Of a DNA stretch of 33,849 nucleotides, positions 1 through 8,782 are shown piece after piece. The notes under the pieces are model-generated. The model worked only from the letters and a program-made list of their open reading frames with translations, was not told the origin of the DNA and ran no database searches. The position numbers and the translations under genes are program-made. The stretch comes from a virus. How positions within the stretch are numbered: position 1 is the stretch's first letter; the number at the start of each line of letters is the position of its first letter. The stretch is taken from positions 1 through 33,849 of IMG/VR virus record IMGVR_UViG_3300020055_000078. The stretch is one strand, 5' to 3'.

Positions 1-2
1 AT

Positions 3-1325
3 GACGTTGCAGATAAGACTGCTTCTTTTACAATTACAGCATCAGGAAAAAATGTTGATGTATTAATTGTGGATGGAAGTATTACAACAACTGCAGGTAA
101 TCATCCAGAGTTTGCCGTTAATCCTGACGGTACAGGTGGTACAAGAGTTCAATATTTTAATTGGTTCTCATTAACAAATCAATTAGGATTAGGTTTCAAC
201 GGTACTTACGACTATAGCACAATAGGTTCGGCTTCAGATACAAATCACGGCTGTCACGTCGCAGGAACAGTGGCAGGGAATACTTTAGGTTGGGCAAGAG
301 ATGCAAATATTTACAGTTTAGAATTTGATTATTTTGGCTCCGTAAACTATGGACCTCTTTCTATGAGTACTATGTGGGATTACATTCGCGAATGGCATAA
401 TACAAAACCAATTAATCCAGACACAGGCCGACGTAATCCTACAATAAGTAATCACAGTTATGGGTCTACTTTTACAAAAGATTCCTTAGTCACAAATAAT
501 CCTAATTATGACGGTATAGGAGCAATAAGATACCGCGGTGTTATTCTTGATGAATATAATACTAATGGAAACGATGTAAGTGATGCACAATTAGAAGCAA
601 GAGGTGTTAATGTACCAGCTGACTCAAATTTTACAATTTCAGCTTACACTACAGATTATGTAGCAGATGTTCAAGATGCTATAAGTGACGGAATTATTAT
701 AGTGACCTCAGCTGGAAATCATTCTCAAAAAAATGTTTTATTTGGTGACCAAGATTATGATAACATATTGTATTTAAGAGCTGATAGTAATTATACTGCT
801 ATCGTTTATTCTAATAGGGGTGGCCAATCGGCTGGAAAAAATGTATCTCAAGCACTCGTAGTAGGGAACCTTTACGACGAAAGCGATGATAAAAAAGATC
901 CTGGATCTGTTTGTGGTAATATTGTAGATGTATTCGCAGCAGGATATGGTATTATGAGTTCTGTATTAACTGGATCTCGTGCAGACTTAAGAGATAGCAA
1001 TTTTTACTTATCTAAGTATGGCGGTTCAAGTATGGCAAGTCCACAGGTGGCAGGTGTATTGGCATTATTTGCTGAAAGTAATCCAAACTTAACAATGTCA
1101 GAAGCACACGACTTTATTACAAATACAGCAACTCCAAATATAATGTATGACACAGGAACTGATGATTGCACTGATTTTGAAAGTTTACAAGGGGCAGCAA
1201 ACAAAATTTTATATTGGAAAAACCAAAGACCTGAAACAGGTTTAAGTTTTCCAAAAATTAATGCAAAAGTAAGACCTAGCTCAGGAAGAACTTGGCCTAG
1301 ACCAAGAATGAGAGTTAAAGGTTAG
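3..1325 (+). CDS. Subtilisin-like serine protease (peptidase S8), 5' truncated
   Basis: This is a serine endopeptidase of the subtilase family. The frame is open to the left edge, so the N-terminus is outside the window. A GTG at 69 could be misread as a start, but it sits inside the strand VDVLIVDGSI that carries the catalytic Asp (codon 72-74). The other active-site residues are visible: His in NHGCHVAGTVAG (codon 246-248), the oxyanion Asn in TSAGN (717-719) and the nucleophile Ser in GGSSMASPQVAG (1029-1031). The usual HGTH is HGCH here, which leaves the catalytic His intact. Spacing between Asp and His, and between His and Asn, is larger than in subtilisin, so there are insertions. The last 20 or so residues are rich in Arg and Pro. 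It lies 44 bases upstream of a gp8-like baseplate gene. I infer either virion maturation or a tail-borne enzyme. No signal peptide can be judged because the N-terminus is missing. Confidence 0.9.
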   Translation, partial: DVADKTASFTITASGKNVDVLIVDGSITTTAGNHPEFAVNPDGTGGTRVQYFNWFSLTNQLGLGFNGTYDYSTIGSASDTNHGCHVAGTVAGNTLGWARDANIYSLEFDYFGSVNYGPLSMSTMWDYIREWHNTKPINPDTGRRNPTISNHSYGSTFTKDSLVTNNPNYDGIGAIRYRGVILDEYNTNGNDVSDAQLEARGVNVPADSNFTISAYTTDYVADVQDAISDGIIIVTSAGNHSQKNVLFGDQDYDNILYLRADSNYTAIVYSNRGGQSAGKNVSQALVVGNLYDESDDKKDPGSVCGNIVDVFAAGYGIMSSVLTGSRADLRDSNFYLSKYGGSSMASPQVAGVLALFAESNPNLTMSEAHDFITNTATPNIMYDTGTDDCTDFESLQGAANKILYWKNQRPETGLSFPKINAKVRPSSGRTWPRPRMRVKG

Positions 1326-1333
1326 AAACTGGT

Positions 1334-1341
1334 AATAAATA
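1334..1341 (+). promoter_or_regulatory. Candidate T4-like late promoter (AATAAATA)
   Basis: This octamer fits NATAAATA, the late promoter element described for marine T4-like phages (T4 itself uses TATAAATA). It lies in the short gap between the protease and the gp8-like gene, 28 bases before the ATG. The first base is A rather than T, so it is weaker evidence than the two perfect copies at 10237 and 27234. Confidence 0.5.
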
Positions 1342-1369
1342 AACAAAAATATAGAAGAGTTAACTCAAC

Positions 1370-3334
1370 ATGGCAGAAATCTTAACAAACAATTTTAAGA
1401 GTGATGTAAATAAAATTTTCATCGCCGACGCAAAAGCGAACGATGATTATTATATGTTTGTTTCTACAATCGGAACATTTAATCCGGTTGACTCTGCTTA
1501 TTCACAAAATGAGTTTTTAGAAAATACTCTGTTCGGAAAAAGAATTCATCCTGCTGATATTAACTTTATGATAAGATATTATCCTTGGCAGAGAGGAACA
1601 GTATATACTCAATTTGATGACACAGCTGATTTAACAGGAACAAACTTTTATGCGGTAGTTGGTCCTAACGATAATGATACTGGAGATTATCGAATTTATA
1701 AATGTTTAGATAACGATAACGGTGCAACTGCCGAATCTCCTCCTACATTTGACAATGCTAACTTAAATCAAATTTATGAAACGGCCGACGGTTATGTATG
1801 GAAATATATGTATCGTTTAACAACATTACAGTTTGAAGGATACAATGCATTAGGTTATATTCCTATTGACCCAGCAGCGGTTATTGAACCTGCTGAAGTT
1901 CGAGGTGGGGGTATTTCTGATATTCAAGTTGAGAACCAAAATGGGAACCAAGGTTATCAACAAAAATTTGGAGTGTTGGATTTTATCTTTGGTAGAACAG
2001 GTGGCGGTAATGTTCACGGAGAAGTTTCAGTTAGACTTGACCCTGTGAATAATGACTTATCTTCAATTGATAACTATTATGTTGGTCAATATCTTTACAT
2101 TACAAATCCAAGCTCAAGTGTTACGAATCTATTTAAAATAGATTATTATAAATTTAATGAAGCAAGTGGTTTGGCTGAAATAAGAGTAGGTCCTGAACTT
2201 GCGAATCCTTCAAGAGGAAACGTTGAAGGTGCAACACAAGCAAACCCAGTTGTCATTACATCAGTAGGTCATAATCTTGTATCAAGACAACCTATTCGTT
2301 TTAGAGATGTAGGTGGTATGACAGAATTGAATGATGACGACGGTGATGGAAATCCAGTTTATTATGTAGTACCAATCGACGATGATACATTCTCATTAAG
2401 AACAGACCCAAATTTAGCAAATAATTTAGACGGTTCTGGATTTGGTGCATTTACATCAGGCGGAACATATGAAGCTGATAAGGATTTAATCACTGCAGGA
2501 GTTAAAGTAAACGGACCTGCTAATATTATTCCTAGAGTTGATATTAAAGGAGATGGTATTGGGGCGGTCGCAATTCCTGTTCTTGAAGACGATGTAATTA
2601 ATTCAATCACAGTATTAAATAAAGGCTCAGGATACACAAACGTTATCGCAAATGTAATTGACCCTGCAGTCGACTTTAATCCTGATGACCCAACAACGAC
2701 AGATGTAAGATGTAAGATAAGACCTATTATTGAACCAAACGGTGGTCACGCATATAATTTAATTGATGAATTAAAATGTAAACATTTTGGAATGTATGGA
2801 TATATAACTGCAGAAGACAATACTCATATCGGTGATGTAAATACTTACGGTGCTTTAGGTATTGTAAGATCACCTCAATTTAGAAGTGTAGGATCCGGGT
2901 CATGGAGAAGTGGACAGTCAAATGCTGTTTCATCTCCTGATGTTTTTGATAATCGTATCGCAGTCACAACCGACGATTATGGAAGTTTAACAGCAAATAG
3001 TACTGTGACACAAATTGATGGAAGTAATGAGATTACATTTACCGCACAAGTACATGAAATTGACGCATCAGCAAACACAGTTTATTTAGCAGAATTTATG
3101 GGTCCAAACAGAAATAATATTCTTGTAGGTAATGGAGATACATCATTTAACCCTAATCTTGATATTGTATCAGATACAGGACAGAGAATCACAATAAATA
3201 ATCCAGTAGCAGACAATATTGTATATTCTGATTATATACAAAGAACAGGTGAAGTATATTTCATGGAAGACTTCTTCCCATTAGCAAGAACCGACTTATC
3301 AAGAGAAGAATTTAAGTTTGTATTGGAATTTTAA
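1370..3334 (+). CDS. 8: Baseplate wedge subunit, T4 gp8-like
   Basis: This is a baseplate wedge component. In T4, gp8 dimers bind gp7, gp10 and gp6 as the wedge assembles. The signature is in the N-terminal third: YRIYKCLDN near residue 108, then a Pro-rich stretch, then ETADGYVWKYMYRL at residues 137-150. This matches the T4 gp8 pattern of a 'VYRCLD' strand followed by 'DGYVWEYLFEI'. An aromatic block around residues 66-78 includes RYYPW. At 654 residues it is about twice the size of T4 gp8 (334). Extra material from about residue 180 to 450 includes a module with VGHNL, GMTELN and DDDTFSL (residues 290-345), which resembles a beta module common in phage fibre proteins. The ATG at 1370 is preceded by AGAAGAG. 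It is followed 15 bases later by the DUF4815-type gene, so the two are probably cotranscribed. Confidence 0.85.
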   Translation: MAEILTNNFKSDVNKIFIADAKANDDYYMFVSTIGTFNPVDSAYSQNEFLENTLFGKRIHPADINFMIRYYPWQRGTVYTQFDDTADLTGTNFYAVVGPNDNDTGDYRIYKCLDNDNGATAESPPTFDNANLNQIYETADGYVWKYMYRLTTLQFEGYNALGYIPIDPAAVIEPAEVRGGGISDIQVENQNGNQGYQQKFGVLDFIFGRTGGGNVHGEVSVRLDPVNNDLSSIDNYYVGQYLYITNPSSSVTNLFKIDYYKFNEASGLAEIRVGPELANPSRGNVEGATQANPVVITSVGHNLVSRQPIRFRDVGGMTELNDDDGDGNPVYYVVPIDDDTFSLRTDPNLANNLDGSGFGAFTSGGTYEADKDLITAGVKVNGPANIIPRVDIKGDGIGAVAIPVLEDDVINSITVLNKGSGYTNVIANVIDPAVDFNPDDPTTTDVRCKIRPIIEPNGGHAYNLIDELKCKHFGMYGYITAEDNTHIGDVNTYGALGIVRSPQFRSVGSGSWRSGQSNAVSSPDVFDNRIAVTTDDYGSLTANSTVTQIDGSNEITFTAQVHEIDASANTVYLAEFMGPNRNNILVGNGDTSFNPNLDIVSDTGQRITINNPVADNIVYSDYIQRTGEVYFMEDFFPLARTDLSREEFKFVLEF

Positions 3335-3349
3335 GGAACGTAAGCAAAG

Positions 3350-6300
3350 ATGCCTATTAATAAAAATTTAAACATTGCTCCATACTTCGATGATTACGAT
3401 GTAGAGAAACAGTTTTATCGAGTTATGTTCAAGCCCGGCTATGCCATTCAGGCAAGAGAGCTTACGCAATTACAAACAATGCTCCAAGGCCAGGTAGAAG
3501 CTTTCGGAGATAATATATTTAAAGAAGGTTCAGTTGTAAAAGGATGTAACTTTACAGAACTTGATGACCTTCAATTCGTTAAAGTTAACGATGGCCCGTC
3601 CGGATTTAATGCAACATCTTATATTAGTGGTCCTGCTGTAGAAACACTTCAGGGTCAAGAAGTTGAACTCGATTATGTTTATGAAATTGTTGGTCAATCA
3701 ACAGGATTGAGAGCAGAAATTGTTCAAGCATCAACAGGTTTCCAAACAAGACCACCAGATTTAAACACATTCTATATTAACTATTTAAATACAACATCAG
3801 CGGCAACTCAATTCCAAGCTGGTGAAAACCTTGTAATTAACAGACACAAATACTTAAGAGGTACAACTCAAGAAACTCTTAATTCTGAGCCAGTCATAAC
3901 TCAAGGACTTGCTGTAAGTGCAGGTATTAGTACTCCTCATGTAGGTAAGTCTTTTGGTATCGAAGCTGCTCCTGGTATTATATTCCAAAAAGGTCATTTT
4001 ATCTTTGTTGCCGAACAGAGACTTATTGTTGAGAAATACAGCAATTCGCCTAACGATAAATCTGTAGGTTATTTAGTATCTGAATCACTTATTAATGCTT
4101 TACAAGATTCAAGCCTATACGACAATGCAAACGGTTCTAAAAATGAAAACGCACCGGGTGCTGATAGATTAAAACTTGTACCTACGCTCACAGTTAAAGA
4201 TACATCAACTGCAGCTGCAGATTCTGACTTCTTTACATTAGTTCGTTATCAAAACGGTAATGCAATTACTGTTCGCGACGTTTCACAATATAACGTATTA
4301 GGTGATGAACTTGCTCGAAGAACATACGAAGAGTCAGGTAATTATATTTTAGAACAATTCCCATTAAGTACTGATGACCGTATTCCTGAAGGTCAATCTA
4401 ATACAGAGGTCCAAGTTATTGTAGGACCTGGTACTGCTTATGTCAAAGGTTATAGAATAGAAAATTCTGGAGATCGTGCATTTACAATTGACCAAATCGC
4501 AACGACTGAAGAAATTACAAACCAAAATGTTTCTATGGAATATGGTAATTATCTTGAAGTTGAAGATACGGCAGGTTGGAACGGAAAATTAGATATTGGT
4601 CTTGGTTCTGCAGCAAATCCTCAAACATCTTCAAACCAAGATATGGGTGATGTATATATTCAGAATTTAACAAAGAATAGAATTTATTTACACAGTGGTA
4701 ATTATAGTGGTGTATATAATTTATCAGACTTAGATAGATTCAGCGACGGTAATGGTTATGTTCAAGTAAAACAAACTGGTGCTGCTCCTTTATTAAGAGA
4801 AACAAATAAAAAGGCATTAGTTTTTGATACAGGTGTAAATGGATTATTTGGAACAAACAATACGCTGATTCCTGTAAGAGCTTATGTTCCTGCTACACAT
4901 TCCAACGGAACAATTACTTTAACGGCAAACCCAGGTGAAGATTTTAATTGTTCACAAGATGACATATTAGTTGTTGATAGTTCTTCAGTACAACATGATG
5001 CTACAACATCAACTGCATTAAATAATTCACAGCTGAATATTCAAATTTCTAATACAGCTGCCACGAATGTGTCAGTTTATTATAACAAGAGATTAATTGG
5101 TTCAACCGACGGTGTTGACCCATATAATAAAGTTGTAAGATCACCTTATATTAAATTTGCATATAATAATGCGCAATCCAAATACAGTTTAGGATTCCCT
5201 GATGTATTTGACATTATTAGTATTGTGGATTCTTCAGGCGAAGATTATTCAAACAGCTTTAGATTAAGAACAAATCAAAAAGATACTTATTACGATATTT
5301 CATATTTAGAATATATTGAAGGCAGACCTCAACCGTCAGGAACAATGACAGTTCAGTTAAAAGTGTTTCAAGTCAATACATCTACAGGTGAACACTTCTT
5401 CTCAATTAACAGCTATCCTAATTCATTAGAAGCTTGGGAGATTCCTTCTTATGTATCTGGGTCAGGAACAGTTTATAATTTAAGAGATTGTTTTGATTTC
5501 AGAGCACATGTGAATAAAGATGCTTCGGCTGATTATAATAATACAAGTGCAGGTTCTGCTCCTACAATTTCTACGCAAGTTGGAACATATGCTTTATCGT
5601 TTAGCAATGTAGGACAACCGTTAACTCCTGCTGCACAGCAATCTTTACAAACAGATTTAGAATATTACTTAACAAGAATTGATACTATTGCTTGTGATTC
5701 TTACGGAAACATCAGCCTAATCAAGGGTGAAGAAAACAGAAACGCGGTTCCACCAAGAATAGGAACAGACAAGTTAGCAATTGCTAACGTTGAGATTCCA
5801 TCATATCCTGCACTATCCAAGAAGCAAGCTGAAGTTCTCCGTAAAGGAGATTACGCAATCAGACCAAGAGCAACTGGTATTAAAGCTTATACAATGAAAG
5901 ATATGCACAATCTTGAGAAGAAGATTGATAACATGGCATATTATATTTCATTGAACCAATTAGAATCTGAAACTTCAAACTTGGTTATCAGAGATGAAAA
6001 CGGTTTAAACAGATTTAAGAATGGATTTATTGTTGACCCATTCAACGATTTAACTTTATCTGAAATTAGTCATCCACAATTTAACGCATCAGTTCCATTT
6101 AATCAAAAGATTTTAACTCCATCGTTAAAAACATTTGCTTTGGATTTGATTTACGATTCTTCAACAGGTTCTTCTGTGTTCCCAAGTACCGATAATGGTA
6201 AAGCGGCAACAATTGGAAGAAACTCGAGTGTTGATATTATCGAGCAGCCTTATGCTTCTAACTTTAGAAATTGTGTTTCTAATTTTTACAAGTATGTAGG

Positions 6301-8782
6301 TGATGGAATTATTTCTCCACCTTACGATGCTGCTTATGATACAACAGTTAACCCTGCATCTATTGATATTGACTTAACTGAACCTTTCCAAGAGTTCGTT
6401 GATAGTATTCAAGAGTTCATTCCGATGACTGATACTTCAACAACGACAATGTTTGAAAGAGACCCAGGTCGAAGAGGAAGAAGAGGAGCAGGTACACAGA
6501 CACAAACAATCACAACAAGAACAAGTGAAATTACAATTGACGGTAGCACAACAACCGAAAACTTTGTTGGTGAATTTGTATCTGACTTTAGATTCCAACC
6601 ATTTATGGCATCAAGGGATATTAAAATCTATATGTCAGGTTTAAGACCTAATCAAAGACATTACTTCTTCTTTGATGGTATTTCTGTTGATGCTCATGTA
6701 TTACCAGGTTCAATTACAGCGGATTCAATTGATGAAGTTGAAAGATTTGGCGAAAAGGGTGATGCAGTTGAAACCGATGCAAACGGTGTATTAAGAGCGG
6801 TCTTCCATTTACCTGCCGAAACATTCTATGTAGGTGATAGGGTATTAGAAATTGCTGACGTAAATCAATATTCAAGTATTGATAGTGGAGCAACATCAAA
6901 AGGATTCGTTACTTACCGTGCATACAACTTCAGTGTTGAAAAGACAAGTTTAACAACATCTACAAGGTCACCTAATTTTGATGTGAATACGACAACAACA
7001 ATTAGAAATGTTGCTCGACGTATTCGAGGTAGAGATCCTCTTGCACAAACATTCTTTATTAAGAAAGGTATGGGTCAAGGTTCAAACTCTGTTTACTTAT
7101 CAGAAGTTGATGTATACTTTAAACGTAAGCCTGATGGAACGATAGGTGGTGCAAACGCTAATGCTGCACTCAACGGTATCACACTTCAGATTCGTGAAGT
7201 ATTAAATGGATATCCTACAAACCAAATTCTACCATTCTCTGCGGTTCATAAATTACCAGCAGGAGTAAGTGTATCTGAAGATGCTTCAGTCGCAACAACA
7301 TTTGAATTTGAAGCACCTGTTAGATTGGACGTTGAAAAAGAATACGCAATTGTTCTTCAGCCTGATGCATCAGATCCAAATTATTTAGTATATACATCTA
7401 AGGTTGGTGGTACTGATTTAACACCAGGTGATACTCAAGGTGCTGCTATCGTTCAGGATTGGGGAGACGGTGTATTATTTACTTCAACTAATAACAGTGC
7501 ATGGTCGTCATATCAGGATGAAGACGTTAAGTTTACAATCAGAAGACACAACTTCAATTCTTCAACAGGTACTGTAAGATTAACAAACAACAAAAACGAA
7601 TTCTTGTCAGTTACGGATATCACAGGAAGGTTTACACCGGGTGAAAAGATTTATCAAGCAAAAGGTTCTTCAGGAACAGTTGGTGTCACAAACAATAGTA
7701 AGACATTAACAGGTACTGCATTATCAAGTGTATATGCTGAAGGCGACTTCATGATGATTGAAGGTGGTAATCCAGTTGTGAAAGGATTATATAAAGTAGT
7801 CACAATTGTTAATGCTGATACATTAACTCTTGATAGACCTTGGCCAATTACAACAGGTTCAGCAAATGCAACTCCTGTAGTTGTTGGTGATTTATGTCAT
7901 TACGATTTAAGAAATCCATTTGAAATGCATTTAGAAAATTCATCGGTTAGTTCTTCTAAAGTATTTACTGTAAGCGATCCTTTAGATGCAACCACTAAAA
8001 TTCTTGGAATAGATAGTGGTAATTCTGCTGATATAGCATCAATTGATAATATCAATTTAAGTTATGTTCAGCCTATGATTATGAAAGCTGCTGATGATGT
8101 TTCTAAGACAACATTATCAGGTACATTCGTTCCACCTGATGATGTAAATATAACATATGATATGCCAATGGCTTTCAATGATAATAATCACTTTAGTACA
8201 GACGGTGTTATTATTTACAGTATGTCTAACGATCCTTCAAGAACAAAAGTATTTAAAGTAAATGTTGGACTTGAGAATGGCAGCAACGTCACATCAACTC
8301 CATTTGTTGATATTGAAGCATCTAAATTAATTGCATATCAATATAAGATTACGAATAGTGCTGATACAACAGCAAAGTATATCAGTAAGACTATTGAGTT
8401 AGCTGAAGATCTTGATGCTGAAGATTTCAATTTAATTCTTTCTGCTTATCGTCCAAAAGGAACAGATATTAAAGTTTATATCAAAGCTCAGAACGGATAT
8501 GACAATGATGAGTTTGATAATTTAGCTTGGACTGAATTAGAATTATTTGAAGGAGTAGGTTCATTCTCAACGGCGACACAATTACAAGATTATAGAGAAT
8601 TTAAATATAGAATCAATGCTTCAAATAAGGTAAGTCAATTACCTTCTGAACCATTTACATATACATCACAAGCTGGTGTATTCCAAGGATTTAAGAGATT
8701 CCAAATTCGTATAGATATGTTATCTCCAAATATCCATAATGCACCAACACTTAAGGACTATCGTGGTATTGCACTTACGTAG
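3350..8782 (+). CDS. Large baseplate/tail structural protein, DUF4815 type
   Basis: This virion structural protein has 1,810 residues. The N-terminus carries the DUF4815 signature of marine T4-like phages: PYFDDYD (11-17), FYRVMFKPGYAIQARELTQL (22-41), then LQTML, FGDNIFKEGSVV and VKGCN. Later landmarks are an Arg-rich patch, RDPGRRGRRG, followed by a Thr-rich linker near residues 1037-1065; LRPNQRHYFFFDGISV near 1095-1110; and DPLAQTFFIKKG at 1229-1240. The C-terminal strand FKRFQIRIDMLSPN ends with LKDYRGIALT. These motifs recur in large tail proteins of this phage group. The location directly after the gp8-like gene, where T4 has gp9-gp11, suggests a wedge, fibre-connector or tail-pin role. 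That role is inferred. AAGGA at 3333-3337 is the likely ribosome site, and it overlaps the end of the upstream gene. Confidence 0.8.
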   Translation: MPINKNLNIAPYFDDYDVEKQFYRVMFKPGYAIQARELTQLQTMLQGQVEAFGDNIFKEGSVVKGCNFTELDDLQFVKVNDGPSGFNATSYISGPAVETLQGQEVELDYVYEIVGQSTGLRAEIVQASTGFQTRPPDLNTFYINYLNTTSAATQFQAGENLVINRHKYLRGTTQETLNSEPVITQGLAVSAGISTPHVGKSFGIEAAPGIIFQKGHFIFVAEQRLIVEKYSNSPNDKSVGYLVSESLINALQDSSLYDNANGSKNENAPGADRLKLVPTLTVKDTSTAAADSDFFTLVRYQNGNAITVRDVSQYNVLGDELARRTYEESGNYILEQFPLSTDDRIPEGQSNTEVQVIVGPGTAYVKGYRIENSGDRAFTIDQIATTEEITNQNVSMEYGNYLEVEDTAGWNGKLDIGLGSAANPQTSSNQDMGDVYIQNLTKNRIYLHSGNYSGVYNLSDLDRFSDGNGYVQVKQTGAAPLLRETNKKALVFDTGVNGLFGTNNTLIPVRAYVPATHSNGTITLTANPGEDFNCSQDDILVVDSSSVQHDATTSTALNNSQLNIQISNTAATNVSVYYNKRLIGSTDGVDPYNKVVRSPYIKFAYNNAQSKYSLGFPDVFDIISIVDSSGEDYSNSFRLRTNQKDTYYDISYLEYIEGRPQPSGTMTVQLKVFQVNTSTGEHFFSINSYPNSLEAWEIPSYVSGSGTVYNLRDCFDFRAHVNKDASADYNNTSAGSAPTISTQVGTYALSFSNVGQPLTPAAQQSLQTDLEYYLTRIDTIACDSYGNISLIKGEENRNAVPPRIGTDKLAIANVEIPSYPALSKKQAEVLRKGDYAIRPRATGIKAYTMKDMHNLEKKIDNMAYYISLNQLESETSNLVIRDENGLNRFKNGFIVDPFNDLTLSEISHPQFNASVPFNQKILTPSLKTFALDLIYDSSTGSSVFPSTDNGKAATIGRNSSVDIIEQPYASNFRNCVSNFYKYVGDGIISPPYDAAYDTTVNPASIDIDLTEPFQEFVDSIQEFIPMTDTSTTTMFERDPGRRGRRGAGTQTQTITTRTSEITIDGSTTTENFVGEFVSDFRFQPFMASRDIKIYMSGLRPNQRHYFFFDGISVDAHVLPGSITADSIDEVERFGEKGDAVETDANGVLRAVFHLPAETFYVGDRVLEIADVNQYSSIDSGATSKGFVTYRAYNFSVEKTSLTTSTRSPNFDVNTTTTIRNVARRIRGRDPLAQTFFIKKGMGQGSNSVYLSEVDVYFKRKPDGTIGGANANAALNGITLQIREVLNGYPTNQILPFSAVHKLPAGVSVSEDASVATTFEFEAPVRLDVEKEYAIVLQPDASDPNYLVYTSKVGGTDLTPGDTQGAAIVQDWGDGVLFTSTNNSAWSSYQDEDVKFTIRRHNFNSSTGTVRLTNNKNEFLSVTDITGRFTPGEKIYQAKGSSGTVGVTNNSKTLTGTALSSVYAEGDFMMIEGGNPVVKGLYKVVTIVNADTLTLDRPWPITTGSANATPVVVGDLCHYDLRNPFEMHLENSSVSSSKVFTVSDPLDATTKILGIDSGNSADIASIDNINLSYVQPMIMKAADDVSKTTLSGTFVPPDDVNITYDMPMAFNDNNHFSTDGVIIYSMSNDPSRTKVFKVNVGLENGSNVTSTPFVDIEASKLIAYQYKITNSADTTAKYISKTIELAEDLDAEDFNLILSAYRPKGTDIKVYIKAQNGYDNDEFDNLAWTELELFEGVGSFSTATQLQDYREFKYRINASNKVSQLPSEPFTYTSQAGVFQGFKRFQIRIDMLSPNIHNAPTLKDYRGIALT

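Follow-up and report, generated by a model that had tools for sequence, protein, structure and literature searches.

A candidate virion-borne subtilase zymogen genetically linked to a baseplate fibre in T4-like marine phages

The window analysed here is an entire virus record of 33,849 bases, which opens with a gene for a subtilase of family S8 (Table 1). Its reading frame comprises 440 open codons ending in TAG and has no 5' limit within the record. In profile searches, the encoded fragment matched Pfam PF00082 (E 8.6e-22, 78.2 bits, with a curated cut-off of 21.8 bits) and phrog_9158 (E 5e-67). An earlier note had proposed an S8 protease with its Asp, His, Asn and Ser in the expected order and a gp8-like gene directly downstream; the match well above the PF00082 cut-off, the four residues and the neighbouring gene, which belongs to the 'baseplate wedge subunit' family phrog_438, bear this out. 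The enzyme is also, as had been stated, distinct from gp21, the head protease of T4, which is likewise a protease of T4-like phages but belongs to another family (S77) and has another role; separate PF03420 (S77) genes are present in two related contigs. Farther along the window, a 3629-residue protein with many repeated blocks of the types YDPxTGxF and CRRDxxYIxDAV adjoins a collagen-like fibre of 1826 residues.

Table 1. Coordinates of the features discussed in the text (positions are those of the window unless a contig is given; residue numbers are given as fragment / full-length copy)
Feature	Position	Strand	Remarks
S8 subtilase gene	3..1325	+	5' end cut by record edge; last 440 of ~563 residues
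Catalytic Asp, D24 / D147	72..74	+	kept in 118/118 covering relatives
Catalytic His, H82 / H205, motif HGCH	246..248	+	kept in 127/127 covering relatives
Oxyanion-hole Asn, N239 / N362	717..719	+	kept in 126/126 covering relatives
Most variable block, full-length residues 363-420	720..893	+	directly after oxyanion Asn; from identity blocks
Nucleophile Ser, S343 / S466, in GGSSMASP	1029..1031	+	kept in 124/124 covering relatives
gp8-like baseplate wedge gene	1370..3334	+	phrog_438, E 1e-48; directly downstream of protease
Large tail protein with DUF4815	3350..8782	+	PF16075 E 1e-50, phrog_358; constant next neighbour in lineage
Repeat protein, 3629 aa	10274-21163		
Collagen-like fibre, 1826 aa	21656-27136		
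Full-length protease counterpart	L013:3477-5165		IMG/VR contig
S-CAM1 subtilase C030809_094	L367:5338-7593		
S-BM3 SBM3_00202	L371:1-1361		
Non-S8 slot protein, Sf-CH1b	L369:4335-6632		
Non-S8 slot protein, S-BM3	L371:4323-6149		
Non-S8 slot protein, S-SCSM1	L374:4325-6295		
Non-S8 slot protein, AG-345-F15	L370 from 4341		

The missing 5' end could be supplied from a full-length counterpart of 563 residues, 97% identical to the fragment, which matches phrog_9158, a group of cyanophage proteins with no assigned function, over residues 2-559, i.e. most of the protein (E 4.7e-102). Compared with this copy, the window lacks about 123 residues, and the propeptide-like domain described below lies within them. 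This nearly identical ORF is intact and shows that the gene is not broken by a stop or frameshift. Conservation of the catalytic residues was counted in an alignment of 128 proteins, taking only those that cover each column (Table 1). The Cys of the HGCH motif, singled out earlier as a departure from textbook subtilases, is real but not special: more family members have Cys at this position than any other residue (69 of 127), the alternatives being T, V, A, I, M or S. The gene product is an S8 subtilase with intact catalytic residues.

The gene directly upstream of the protease lies outside the window and is known from relatives. In longer related contigs (L018), gp6 is followed in turn by a second wedge gene, a fibre gene, the protease gene, gp8 and the genes for the DUF4815 protein and an S74 fibre. 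The N-terminus of the upstream fibre carries a T4 gp9/gp10-type domain (PF07880, 25.4-27.5 bits, with a curated cut-off of 25), and at its C-terminus lies a module some 125 residues long. Directly upstream of the protease, the module is present in all 96 visible loci of the window's clade and in 77 of 78 loci of the S-RSM4-like clade, i.e. 173/174 for the two clades combined, counts that include some near-duplicate contigs and become 110/144 over all clades when collapsed at 80% identity. The spacing between the module gene and the protease gene is one to six bases across clades, most often a single nucleotide. In the P-SSM2-like clade the module is upstream in none of the 40 loci, and P-SSM2 itself has a collagen-like tail-fibre gene in place of the module gene.

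The proposed linkage to baseplate genes holds as regards the baseplate-cluster context, but synteny with gp8 is restricted to the window's own lineage: gp8 comes next after the protease at 97 of the 108 loci in that clade and at 1 of 79 in the next, and we rejected it as a defining feature. The deeper linkage of the protease is with the upstream fibre gene, not with gp8. One further protein surfaced in our structure search and not in the tblastn search of phage records, namely S-CAM1 C030809_094; annotated as 'putative proximal tail fiber', it is a subtilase (PF00082, E 3.5e-10) encoded one base downstream of the module gene.

Scans of viral contigs yielded many relatives; in one of them, these made up at least 586 of the 599 candidate stretches. 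A tblastn search of 50,697 phage records identified the gene in 40, all from cyanophages except for two marine single-cell viruses. A bacterial origin was considered and rejected, as nothing beyond general S8 matches came from the scan of bacterial genomes; most of these covered part of the catalytic domain at about 25-40% identity. We looked for psbA as a host marker in 12 related contigs, one of them of 183 kb, and found no match. Phrog_9158 proteases of the cyanophages S-H38 (QPB07966), S-CREM1 (SCREM1_165), Sf-FR1 (SfFR1_192) and S-RSM4 (SRSM4_039) belong to the same family and share the layout of a putative propeptide plus enzyme and the upstream fibre module; they differ in being 32-41% identical to the window's protein and known by annotation only. 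Those of S-H38 and S-CREM1 lie, like the window's, one gene from gp8, whereas in S-RSM4 and most others the protease is not close to gp8 but has tail-fibre and structural genes around it. More distant are P-SSM2 PSSM2_297 (T4-GC 292, 'contains PF00082') and S-SCSM1 SSCSM1_228, subtilases of T4-like cyanophages that also adjoin tail-fibre genes but are about 31% identical and have no fibre module directly upstream. An S8 peptidase is also mentioned in P-HM1 and P-HM2 (PMC3037559). We found no functional study of this protease family in open papers.

An AlphaFold model of the full-length copy, built with an alignment of 111 sequences, reached a pLDDT of 91.1 and a pTM of 0.85; an earlier run with 15 sequences (pLDDT 50) was set aside. 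Residues 84-534 form a proteinase-K/aqualysin-type domain, with proteinase K, aqualysin and keratinase as structural matches at Z scores of 33-35 over about 275 residues. The large insertions noted from the fragment are confirmed: the aligned part of aqualysin or proteinase K is about 276 residues long, which leaves roughly 175 extra. Residue 84 of the full-length copy corresponds to residue 1 of mature aqualysin, and the preceding residues 1-83 adopt in the model a beta-alpha-beta-beta-alpha-beta succession that ends at that point. This is the arrangement known for I9 propeptides, and the predicted secondary structure would fit a propeptide-like, I9-like domain. A search of Pfam at E up to 1 gave no I9 profile match for the N-terminal domain, and sequence and profile searches of the PDB with the propeptide returned nothing useful. 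Using Foldseek, the whole chain aligned to unautoprocessed pro-subtilisin E across both domains with an rmsd of 20, indicating that no single frame superposes both domains.

As judged from the sequence, no Sec signal peptide precedes the propeptide-like domain: the full-length copy begins with MKEYIVTLHN and passes directly into strand one of this N-terminal domain. Secreted S8A subtilases such as proteinase K and aqualysin I share with the phage enzyme the fold, the catalytic residues and, putatively, a propeptide ahead of the enzyme, but the phage enzyme differs by its lack of a signal peptide, its larger catalytic domain, its unusually conserved N-terminal domain and its linkage to a phage fibre. 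Within the phage family, identity is 0.66 for the N-terminal domain and 0.60 for the enzyme, versus 0.25 and 0.60 for the corresponding regions of 16 bacterial subtilases, whose domain boundaries are rough, having been placed by distance from motifs. The conservation excess of the N-terminal domain is greatest in the module-bearing clades. Such unusual conservation suggests an additional job for the propeptide-like domain, perhaps docking to the fibre.

A number of relatives are fusion proteins in which the protease is joined to laminin-G lectin, esterase, Ig or cupredoxin domains. In L342, L259, L262 and L009, the subtilase and an esterase or alpha/beta-hydrolase domain form one long protein, which in L342 and L009 also harbours Ig-like domains. 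Cupredoxin-like domains with a His-Cys-His-Met pattern are found at the protease end in L235 (residues 642-677), at the C-termini in L029, L012 and L011, and also inside the upstream fibre of L013 (P0003, residues 358-444), as if such a module had moved between protease and fibre genes. In the long proteases of 855-881 residues, one and the same additional domain of about 300 residues occupies either of two sites, before the catalytic Asp in L023 and L026 and between Asp and His in L036, L040, L044 and L050. This domain has a conserved EHxxHTxH stretch, and nothing in Pfam matched it at E up to 1.

Between relatives, pairwise dN/dS values of the protease range from 0.30 to 0.62, below 1 and therefore consistent with purifying selection, versus 0.13-0.15 for gp8: the protease changes faster than gp8. 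Among eight close relatives, residues 362-420 show 45% mean identity versus 64-78% in the other blocks, and by analogy with proteinase K this variable block would border the substrate pocket. Comparison of window positions 1-6530 with L013, L014, L015 and L022 revealed mosaic identity, which places a recombination boundary close to where the protease gene ends (3'). Identity to L022 is about 99-100% across gp8 and the DUF4815 gene but only 65-93% in the shared part of the protease; relative to L013, the protease is 95-100% identical and gp8 mostly 77-87%. This mosaicism indicates that the protease cassette moves by recombination, independently of gp8.

In the cyanophage S-SCSM1, 45 virion proteins were detected by mass spectrometry (PMC9602691), and 48 genes are labelled 'virion protein' in its GenBank record. 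The label covers the three non-structural proteins named as detected in the S-SCSM1 paper and is absent from several genes for baseplate, hub and terminase proteins; for these two reasons it seems to track detection. One of the labelled genes is SSCSM1_228, which codes for a subtilase of 1411 residues with added laminin-G domains, a feature that sets it apart from the window's protein. Its low identity to the latter and the lack of the fibre module in its own upstream gene limit the comparison, and a presence of the window's protease in virions would have its support from this homologue only. The proteome of S-CREM1 lists only 14 proteins.

What the data directly support is a subtilase with intact catalytic residues, a propeptide-like architecture and a genetic link to a fibre; from there, we infer its position at the fibre, its activation and its substrate. 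The account that we favour, and consider probable with some reserve, is that of a zymogen which a T4-like marine phage carries in its virion, a fibre-linked subtilase that cuts host-surface proteins. The enzyme would be made in the cytoplasm behind its 83-residue I9-like domain, which should fold it and hold it inactive. It would then be incorporated in the baseplate region together with the upstream-encoded fibre, whose N-terminus resembles the gp9/gp10 docking domain of T4 and whose C-terminal module is the constant genetic partner of the protease. Upon contact with the cell, the protease would cut host-surface or extracellular-matrix proteins, which might aid adsorption or tail access. Of the two functions offered in the earlier note, cutting of host-surface proteins fits better than maturation of fibres or baseplate proteins, given the surface-binding fusions, the variable region after the oxyanion Asn, the swapping of the cassette and the virion-labelled homologue.

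Maturation nevertheless represents the main rival: a protease acting during tail assembly might cleave the fibre encoded with it, gp8 or some other protein of the baseplate, and would not have to remain in the particle. That the enzyme is so closely spaced with one fibre gene in different clades is also what one would expect of a fibre-processing enzyme, and T4-like phages already have one maturation protease, gp21, employed for head maturation. However, the fusions with lectin, esterase, Ig and cupredoxin domains look host-directed, as do the recombinational swapping and the fast-changing region beside the oxyanion Asn, and P-SSM2 retains the enzyme though a collagen-like fibre replaces its fibre partner, making maturation unlikely in our view. 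S8 enzymes are usually free enzymes, and a soluble protease could be freed at lysis or work inside the infected cell, in matrix degradation or host protein turnover, its place in the baseplate cluster being due to chance. We regard this as quite improbable in view of the absent signal peptide, the constant pairing with a structural fibre gene and the homologue labelled as a virion protein. Highly improbable, finally, is a catalytically dead structural or receptor-binding domain that retains only the subtilase fold; the large insertions around the active site and the presence among the structural matches of PCSK9, which acts mainly as a binder, would agree with it, but Asp, His, Asn and Ser are invariant in all covered relatives.

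A tentative extension of the virion-borne zymogen account, possible rather than probable as a whole, combines a propeptide anchor, a latched protease and an adaptor module. The propeptide-like domain would be more than a folding aid and would bind the C-terminal module of the fibre, the lid serving as the anchor of a latched virion protease that is uncapped upon host contact, and the module would act as a general-purpose adaptor, with either a subtilase or an unrelated virion protein in the gene slot downstream. It is favoured by the N-terminal domain being at least as conserved as the enzyme, most markedly in module-bearing clades, and by the occupation of the slot directly after the module by non-S8, mutually homologous proteins in four cyanophage genomes (Sf-CH1b, S-BM3, S-SCSM1 and AG-345-F15), that of S-SCSM1 being likewise labelled as a virion protein. 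An HMM search for the propeptide domain in these slot proteins gave no match, which weighs against the extension. In mirror-tree analyses, the module showed a partial correlation of 0.23 with the propeptide and 0.05 with the catalytic domain; we discounted this as docking evidence, since touching genes stay linked under recombination. S-BM3 also has a 7.9 kb gene annotated as 'peptidase S8' (SBM3_00202), three genes upstream of the fibre partner region of its non-S8 slot protein.

The family had already been annotated by others; its members stand out among subtilases by their missing leader, the unusual conservation of their cap and their genetic link to a tail fibre. Known phage-tail enzymes mostly cut sugars or peptidoglycan. 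The text of a 2018 review on how tailed phages breach cell barriers does not contain 'protease' or 'proteolytic' (PMC6116005). If this family is virion-borne and active, marine T4-like phages bear proteases on their fibres, which would touch on the question of which host surface proteins are barriers or receptors, and a large family of 'hypothetical' genes would become directly testable.
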